From: Candidatus Parcubacteria bacterium | GTDB taxonomy: Bacteria; Patescibacteriota; Patescibacteriia; UBA1558; GWA2-36-10 | Reading direction: 5' to 3' | DNA: 49,583 nt | NCBI GenBank assembly: GCA_018669975.1 | Contig: JABHSK010000009.1 | Location: 115,127 to 164,709, forward strand | Shown here: piece after piece, positions 28,970-30,014 of the stretch | Layout of the letters: each line of letters starts with the position of its first letter | Position numbering within the stretch: position 1 is the stretch's first letter | The notes under the pieces: model-generated | Database searches by the model: none | What the model saw: only the letters and a program-made list of their open reading frames with translations | What the model was told of the DNA's origin: nothing | Position numbers and translations under genes: made by a program

Positions 28970-29133
28970 ATAAAAACTCCTCCACCCGTAGGTAGAGGAG
29001 TTGTTCCCTGCAACTCACTCCTTCATTTTTTGGTTGAGTATTACTTCACTAGCTAGGCACTAAAAATCACCCCACGTTATTTCTAGCACCCTATTGACCG
29101 CAGTATTGCGGTTCAATTCCTGGAAAGGTCTAT
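28970..29133 (-). ncRNA. Putative structured ncRNA
   Basis: Extended -10 TGCTATATT (29140-29148 complement); stem-loops AUUGAACCGC/GCGGUCAAU and AGG(G)UGCUAGAAAU/AUUUUUAGUGCCU; terminator AACUCCUCUACC-UACG-GGUGGAGGAGUU-UUUA; alternative pairing GAGUUG/CAACUC overlaps terminator stem. Confidence 0.6.
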
Positions 29134-29179
29134 ATTTTTAATATAGCAGAGTTAACTGACTTATGGAAATTTATCAAAA

Positions 29180-29474
29180 AAAAGACCCCTTGCCATAAGA
29201 CAAGGGGGTACCGTCGTCGTTATAATAGGTGCAAACCAGAGTCAGTCAGGTCTACCTGACAATCACTCATTCCCCTAAGGTCATAGGGTAGTCAACCTCT
29301 TTCAATCAAAGCTTGCATAATGTGTGCCCACATAGATACTGAGAAGTGCCCTTCTCACTTTGACTTACTCGCTAACATGACTATTGGATTGTCCTACCGG
29401 ACAGTTGCCGCAGGCAACTTTTCCTCCGATTCTCCGGAGCCCTTTTTCACGACGACAATTTGATGAACTCTTAT
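29180..29474 (-). ncRNA. Putative large multi-branched structured ncRNA (~295 nt), identity unknown
   Basis: Minus-strand TTGACA (29509-29504) with TAAGGT; 8-bp closing helix 29213-29220/29449-29456; at least seven short-loop hairpins inside; terminator CCCCCUUGUCUUAUGGCAAGGGG-UCUUUUUUUU. Confidence 0.75.
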
Positions 29475-29585
29475 CAAAAATACCTTAACATATTTAAAAA
29501 TTATGTCAAGAAATTTATTACCTTTACAAACGACTAATTAAATCTTATAATATAGGTAGCTTTTATAAGCGATTTTTATAAAAAT

Positions 29586-30014
29586 ATGACTAAAAAGAAA
29601 AACAAAAAAGAAAAAGAGGAAGAAAAGGATATTTACGACAACATTGAGGAAGAAGAATTAGAAGAAGATGAAGAATTAGAAGAAGAGGGGCAGTTGTCAG
29701 TCGATGTTTATCAGGATAAGAATAGTATAATCATAAAATCTACTATTGCTGGTGTAGAACCTGAGGATGTTGACATCACCTTTGATAATGACATGATCAC
29801 TATCCGAGGCAAACGTCATCGTGATAAGAGCATTAAAGATGAATTTTATTTTTATCAAGAATGTTATTGGGGTGGTTTTTCCAGATCTATTATTCTACCG
29901 GTAGAAGTACAGACTGATAAAATTCAAGCCACCATCAAGAATGGTATTTTGACAATTACATTACCCAAGGCCAAAAAGAAAGATGTTAACATAAAAGTTA
30001 AAGACGAGAATTAA
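29586..30014 (+). CDS. Hsp20/alpha-crystallin family small heat shock protein with acidic N-terminus
   Basis: LSVDVYQDKNSIIIKSTIAGVEPEDVDITFDNDMITIRGKRH...GILTITLPK. Confidence 0.93.
   Translation: MTKKKNKKEKEEEKDIYDNIEEEELEEDEELEEEGQLSVDVYQDKNSIIIKSTIAGVEPEDVDITFDNDMITIRGKRHRDKSIKDEFYFYQECYWGGFSRSIILPVEVQTDKIQATIKNGILTITLPKAKKKDVNIKVKDEN

Follow-up and report, generated by a model that had tools for sequence, protein, structure and literature searches.

The window, which is the whole stretch of 49,583 nucleotides analysed here from a Candidatus Parcubacteria bacterium, contains on its minus strand a predicted free-standing ncRNA gene divergent from a gene for a small heat-shock protein. The features of the locus, numbered by window position, are:

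29178..29475, minus strand: whole predicted transcript of the free-standing ncRNA gene, about 298 nt (promoter and terminator; syntenic copies in genomes G020 and G006)
29482..29509, minus strand: predicted promoter, TTGACA at 29509-29504, 16-nt spacer, -10-like TAAGGT at 29487-29482
29178..29207, minus strand: predicted intrinsic terminator, 9-bp stem (29207-29186) plus T-rich tail (terminator scan)
29211..29458, minus strand: conserved structured domain, 248 nt (covariance models R1-R3; 148.8 bits to R3)
29586..30014, plus strand: divergent neighbour, gene for the Hsp20 small heat-shock protein (Pfam PF00011, E 5.7e-20)

The preliminary description of this DNA proposed an orphan RNA unit of about 295 nt with its own promoter, a strong terminator and no ORF. 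All three elements were recovered, the -10 hexamer of the window being weak (3/6 matches) and the longest same-strand ORF in the RNA region having 27 aa. The minimum free energy of the minus-strand region was -108.8 kcal/mol compared with -81.7 +/- 5.0 kcal/mol for shuffled sequences (z -5.4), and 0 of 200 shuffles folded as well. The neighbouring hsp20 gene was matched in 21/21 family genomes searched; upstream of it lies a putative promoter, TTTACA-17-TATAAT (window 29523-29551, plus strand), which diverges from the RNA promoter and is apparently kept family-wide. A second putative short transcript was noticed just downstream of the RNA on the same strand (window 28970-29145, minus); its fold has a z of -4.3, and a 12-bp terminator hairpin spans 29002-28975. 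This unit has ATGAAGGNGTGA (Met-Lys-Glu/Gly-stop) followed by CAGGGA in common with a unit in G016 (L011) and, with CTG in place of ATG, with one in G006 (L009).

The region was compared with known RNAs. No Rfam 15 family reached the gathering cut-off in the window region, a relaxed-threshold search gave nothing better than E about 0.9 there, and five homologous loci yielded chance-level Rfam matches only. Searches relaxed to E 10 for the window region and to E 5 for the five homologous loci brought up neither the raiA/ModT model (RF03072) nor any 6S model. Both identities were rejected, that of 6S also because the fold is branched whereas 6S forms a single long hairpin with a central bubble. 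As the preliminary description had it, RNase P and tmRNA signatures are missing from the locus: neither RF00010 nor RF00023 matched there, ARAGORN found no tmRNA, and the true genes lie elsewhere in the same genome (RNase P RNA at G000:C8:56538-56874, 250.8 bits, the sole match in the genome; tmRNA at G000:C1:11770-12153, 93 bits), so these two identities were rejected as well. A literature search turned up no description of the RNA. The RNA is outside every described family that was testable.

Relatives of the RNA were searched by DNA similarity, motif scan and covariance models. A DNA search of 95 related genomes revealed one clear relative (G020, 80% identity), and a second syntenic copy beside hsp20, much more diverged than that of G020, is present in G006. 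The three family sequences were aligned by structure, with 23/51 pairs changed on both sides, and used to build model R1, which detected two members in other families among 389 class genomes (E 1e-12 and 2e-11). Among 85,488 species genomes, a motif scan gave five loci, namely G020 (Komeilibacteria), two Falkowbacteria and two Wolfebacteria. With model R2, the Falkowbacteria and Komeilibacteria loci were recognised by their identical scores as copies found before, and the Wolfebacterium copy L049 was matched with E 1e-12. R3, a model with revised structure, added G189 (E 3e-16) and G009 of the window's family (E 8e-10). The set thus comprises eight full-length members: the window and seven found by covariance models, of which three belong to the window's family, three more to its class (two of them named Falkowbacteria) and one to a Wolfebacterium. 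Pairwise identity among members is mostly 58-69%. R1, built from the three family sequences only, scores L049, L055 and L054 at 25.1, 24.5 and 17.2 bits. In a control with R3 on 700 kb of viral contigs the best score was 8.4 bits, compared with 42.7-156.8 bits for the members.

No further members were found with R2 in the orders of the two distant carriers G225 and G348, nor with R3 in a phylum sample; phages and plasmids gave no match in a DNA search, and viral contigs none with one specific exact motif. A second, looser motif gave at least 120 random matches in viral contigs and served only as negative control. At E <= 0.01, R3 matched 7/389 class genomes under stricter filters, at which weak matches are lost; in the order, 4/37 genomes carry the RNA (nearly all candidates scored, only strong matches counted), and each carrier has one strong copy. 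Since the distribution is patchy and close relatives are without it, the RNA is not essential across the group. In Wolfebacteria RIFOXYB1, only the 3' part (P6 onward and the terminator) is left downstream of dnaE (L048:6980-7090, minus), where the relative L049 has a full copy; L048 looks like a decayed gene. Several weaker matches were discarded: a 20-nt exact match to the GGTTTGCACCTATTATAA region inside a VirB4-like gene of G018 (L003:1501-1520; E 0.001 per genome, probably chance), matches to the 5' end of the models inside coding sequence (L040, L051 and L057), and other weak order-level matches (E 0.03-0.6), treated as chance.

The transcription signals recur in the relatives. An exact TTGACA precedes the domain by 51-65 nt in 8/8 members, a TA-starting -10-like hexamer with 3-4/6 matches follows it after 16-17 nt in the eight, and a GC-rich, terminator-like hairpin with T-tract lies downstream in 8/8, the terminator of the window having been scanned by tool and those of the other members judged from downstream sequence. 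In the G189 leader (L054:1460-1500), a perfect hairpin TTTAATATCAT/ATGATATTAAA stands between promoter and P1; at the same place the window has a shorter TTGAT..ATCAA. On comparative grounds, the minus-strand region is a real conserved structured element and, as predicted from its signals, an independent transcription unit.

The conserved fold derived from the eight members begins with the closing helix P1, followed by P2 just inside it, the P3 hairpin, P4 and P4.1, the last two separated by an AG / AGGnnn internal loop. The stacked arms end in a three-way junction of P4.1, P5 and P6, from which the P5 arm and the P6 hairpin emerge. The elements in the window, all on the minus strand, are (paired cells and double-sided changes refer to the eight-member alignment):

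29449..29458, minus strand: P1 5' strand UUGUCGUCGU, pairs with 29220-29211 (98.7% of cells paired, double-sided changes in 9/10 pairs)
29211..29220, minus strand: P1 3' strand ACGACGACGG
29432..29439, minus strand: J1/2 palindrome CUCCGGAG, proposed homodimer contact (self-complementary in 8/8, five sequences)
29424..29431, minus strand: P2 5' strand AAUCGGAG, long-range helix with 29241-29234 (100% of cells paired, 8 sequences)
29234..29241, minus strand: P2 3' strand CUCUGGUU
29404..29418, minus strand: P3 hairpin GUUGCC-UGC-GGCAAC (96.6% of aligned cells paired)
29396..29402, minus strand: P4 5' strand GUCCGGU, long-range with 29251-29245 (92.7% paired, double-sided in 6/7 pairs)
29245..29251, minus strand: P4 3' strand ACCUGAC
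29387..29393, minus strand: P4.1 5' strand GACAAUC, with 29264-29258 (90.9% paired, double-sided in 6/7 pairs)
29258..29264, minus strand: P4.1 3' strand GAUUGUC
29252..29257, minus strand: internal loop AGGUAG between P4.1 and P4 (AG start in 8/8, AGG in 6/8)
29371..29376, minus strand: P5a 5' strand GUUAGC, with 29296-29291 (85.4% paired, double-sided in 6/6 pairs)
29291..29296, minus strand: P5a 3' strand GUUGAC
29366..29369, minus strand: AGUA opposite GAA at 29303-29301 (AGUA in 6/8 aligned members)
29297..29303, minus strand: GAAAGAG, 3' side of the P5 internal loop (aligned members)
29358..29365, minus strand: P5b 5' strand AGUCAAAG, with 29311-29304 (93.8% paired, double-sided in 8/8 pairs)
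29304..29311, minus strand: P5b 3' strand CUUUGAUU
29341..29356, minus strand: P5c hairpin GAGAAG-GGCA-CUUCUC (loop GGCA in L049; GGCG in L041, L042 and L054)
29320..29333, minus strand: P5d hairpin AUGUG-GGCA-CACAU with the second GGCA loop (tandem GGCA also in L049)
29273..29288, minus strand: P6 hairpin CCCUA-UGACCU-UAGGG (97.4% paired, double-sided in 4/5 pairs)

In the eight sequences aligned to the covariance model, 94.5% of 456 cells were standard pairs and 53/63 pairs were changed on both sides, whereas sliding the partners by 1-3 columns lowered pairing to 33.6-49.0% and both-sided pairs to 12-23. No shuffle reached the observed covariation, and nine nested helices were supported. These pair counts lean towards the model, since the first alignments were made by hand and the last was fitted to the model; G009 is poorly aligned. 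Folded in isolation, the conserved structure lies 0.4-30 kcal/mol above the minimum (window 5.7, G009 30 with its weak alignment). As energy alone prefers the minimum-energy fold of the window by 5.7 kcal/mol, the conserved fold rests on comparison and not on energy. The AGUA/GAA element in P5 has the sequence pattern of a bulged-G (loop E / sarcin-ricin) motif, a three-dimensional motif that we infer from it. The P5d loop is GGUA in G020, and P5d is absent from L041 and L042. By eye, a possible pseudoknot was seen in which the P5c loop would pair with the UAUGCA/UACGCA that comes after it (window 29341-29312, minus, and homologues); the pairings would be GCA-UGC for the window, GCG-CGC for L042 and L054, and GUA-UAC for G020.

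The preliminary description pictured a closing helix around a ring of at least seven compact hairpins. The closing stem is P1. The hairpins AGUUGCC-UGC-GGCAACU, GAGAAG-GGCA-CUUCUC, AUGUG-GGCA-CACAU and CCCUA..UAGGG are all in the sequence, and the two GGCA hairpins are indeed enclosed by an 8-bp stem (P5b), a tandem arrangement that recurs in the Wolfebacterium copy L049. The ring itself had to be given up: CUCCG..CGGAG, UGUCC-GGUA-GGACA and GUCAGG-UAGA-CCUGAC occur in this sequence and in its minimum-energy fold but are not conserved in homologues, being alternatives to the long-range helices P2, P4 and P4.1, which replaced them. R1 had used two of these three hairpins; they were dropped because L041 and L042 did not keep them. 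The suggestion of a new structured RNA class is supported by the lack of Rfam matches, the separate RNase P and tmRNA genes, the eight full members and the strong covariation.

The gene contexts of the RNA differ. The hsp20 site is common to three members (window, G020 and G006), which belong to three genera. Elsewhere its neighbours were, in G348, a Fic gene that adjoins tRNA-Ala; in G225, an XRE-type regulator and secE-nusG; in the Wolfebacterium copy L049, dnaE; in G189, a DEAD RNA helicase, tRNA-Trp and an HD-domain-like ORF; and in G009, RecJ-like, RNase H-like and DNA polymerase III subunit-like ORFs. Of these, nusG and the ORFs in L049, L054 and L055 were named by eye. No partner gene was linked to the RNA across these contexts. 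Because the contexts differ while a promoter and a terminator-like hairpin are present in 8/8 members, the RNA probably acts in trans.

These observations bear on three other explanations. The terminator that follows the RNA would suit a leader, riboswitch or attenuator regulating the next gene in cis, as with many riboswitches; such a role is extremely improbable, as the neighbour changes from one to another of the six genomic contexts and often lies on the opposite strand or behind another transcription unit, and the terminator sequence is neither conserved nor overlapping with P1. The RNA might instead be a divergent copy of a housekeeping or widespread RNA such as 6S or raiA/ModT that the Rfam models miss in Patescibacteria, where RNAs can be divergent; in size and in having free-standing genes it resembles raiA (205 nt; PMC12286853). 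This is very unlikely given the empty raiA and 6S searches, the ordinary matches that the RNase P and tmRNA models obtain in this genome and a patchy presence at odds with a housekeeping RNA; moreover, raiA has 8 paired regions (P1-P8) and 2 pseudoknots (PMC11706538) and was resolved as a monomer (PMC12286853). Derivation from a mobile or defence element, as a guide-like RNA, retron-type RNA or intron remnant, would explain the patchy distribution, with few carriers in the class, different sites and one decayed copy (L048). It is nevertheless quite unlikely: none of the inspected ORFs directly beside a full copy was recognised as a transposase, reverse transcriptase or nuclease gene, the DNA search of phages and plasmids and the exact-motif scan of viral contigs gave no match, there is a single strong copy per genome, and the hsp20 site is syntenic in three genera.

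The most telling feature of the fold, which the preliminary description does not mention, is the palindrome in J1/2, the 8 nt directly 5' of P2. Four members carry CUCCGGAG there; the remaining four have CUCUAGAG, CUCUGGAG, CUUCGAAG and CUGGCCAG. Over the set its centre changes completely, between CCGG, CUAG, UCGA and GGCC. At this offset 7/8 members are fully self-complementary when G-U pairs are allowed and 6/8 by Watson-Crick pairs alone; the palindrome of G189 lies one base further on (offset -7) when aligned to the model and directly before P2 when aligned by hand. At every other offset from -20 to +11, at most one member is self-complementary. The self-duplexes have predicted energies of -8.8 to -14.3 kcal/mol, compared with a median of -1.5 for random 8-mers. 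The chance that the four derived inner tetramers all stay self-complementary is 0.14 x 0.0625^3, about 3e-5, a rough estimate that ignores relatedness. A paired change at the centre points to pairing of two molecules, since adjacent bases of one chain cannot pair. A covarying palindrome, the kind of signature used to argue for symmetric kissing contacts in OLE and GOLLD, was found in 8/8 members, in five variants. An anti-Shine-Dalgarno role of the CUCC/GGAG letters was considered and dropped, as G009 (CUUCGAAG) and G189 (CUGGCCAG) are without them.

The RNA could also be real but monomeric. The palindrome would then be either a conserved protein-binding loop or an operator in the DNA, recognised by a homodimeric protein that represses the RNA gene. 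A position 39-46 nt downstream of the -10 hexamer is plausible for an operator, and symmetric evolution is likewise expected of an operator bound by a dimer, so that a homodimeric DNA-binding protein could keep a palindrome. We regard this reading as unlikely, if the most serious alternative to be weighed, and favour a role at the RNA level: in 8/8 members the palindrome lies right against P2, whereas its spacing from the promoter ranges over 7 nt, a complete change of the centre would be unusual for an operator, and CUCUGGAG is palindromic only through G-U pairs, which are available to RNA but not to DNA.

Sequence comparison gives the dimer reading good support, and it is probable that the RNA represents a new free-standing, trans-acting structured ncRNA family in Patescibacteria which most likely works as a homodimer. 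In the proposed arrangement, two RNA copies would kiss symmetrically at their P1/P2 ends, their palindromes forming 8 bp with each other. The distal P5/P6 ends, with the bulged-G-like loop, the GGCA/GGCG-capped hairpins and the conserved AGG loop, would be left as a surface holding a protein or RNA partner, so that the RNA would be a homodimeric scaffold with its partner bound at the P5/P6 end. RNA catalysis is possible.

Among known RNAs, OLE, ROOL and GOLLD are likewise large, free-standing, multi-helix bacterial ncRNAs, whose homomeric contacts were observed (PMC12286853), whereas that of the new RNA is predicted from sequence. Palindrome-to-palindrome switching at OLE L9.3 and GOLLD L21a argues for kissing loops, and the contact was seen by cryo-EM (PMC12286853); the same switching at a symmetric kissing site is found in J1/2. 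The new RNA differs from the three in carrying an 8-nt palindrome in an internal loop, in lacking a linked protein and an Rfam match, and in belonging to Patescibacteria; its domain has about 250 nt compared with about 600 nt in OLE. raiA/ModT (RF03072) is similar in size (about 200-250 nt), own promoter and high degree of structure, and acts in trans in C. difficile (PMC11706538). However, it has two pseudoknots (PMC11706538), is monomeric (PMC12286853) and occurs in more than 2,500 Bacillota/Actinomycetota species (PMC11706538), whereas the new RNA is rare and without Rfam match. Bacterial RNase P RNA and tmRNA share with it the layout in which additional long-range helices come after a closing P1. 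Dimerisation via a short self-complementary loop, as proposed here, is used by the HIV-1 dimer initiation site, which, unlike the new RNA, is part of a viral genomic RNA and has a 6-nt palindrome in a hairpin loop.

To our knowledge, few structured ncRNAs specific to Patescibacteria have been described beyond the universal ones, and none surfaced in the literature search. We give an even chance to the broader view that the RNA is a new class of the Candidate Phyla Radiation, compact (about 250 nt) and free-standing, which would use a palindrome homodimer as scaffold or catalyst in genomes of about 1 Mb. It was not expected that such genomes would apparently keep a complex RNA by selection while close relatives do without it. 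The covarying palindrome predicts that an RNA of about 250 nt forms a homodimer in nature and, if this is true, the RNA would join OLE, ROOL and GOLLD among the few natural homomeric RNAs.
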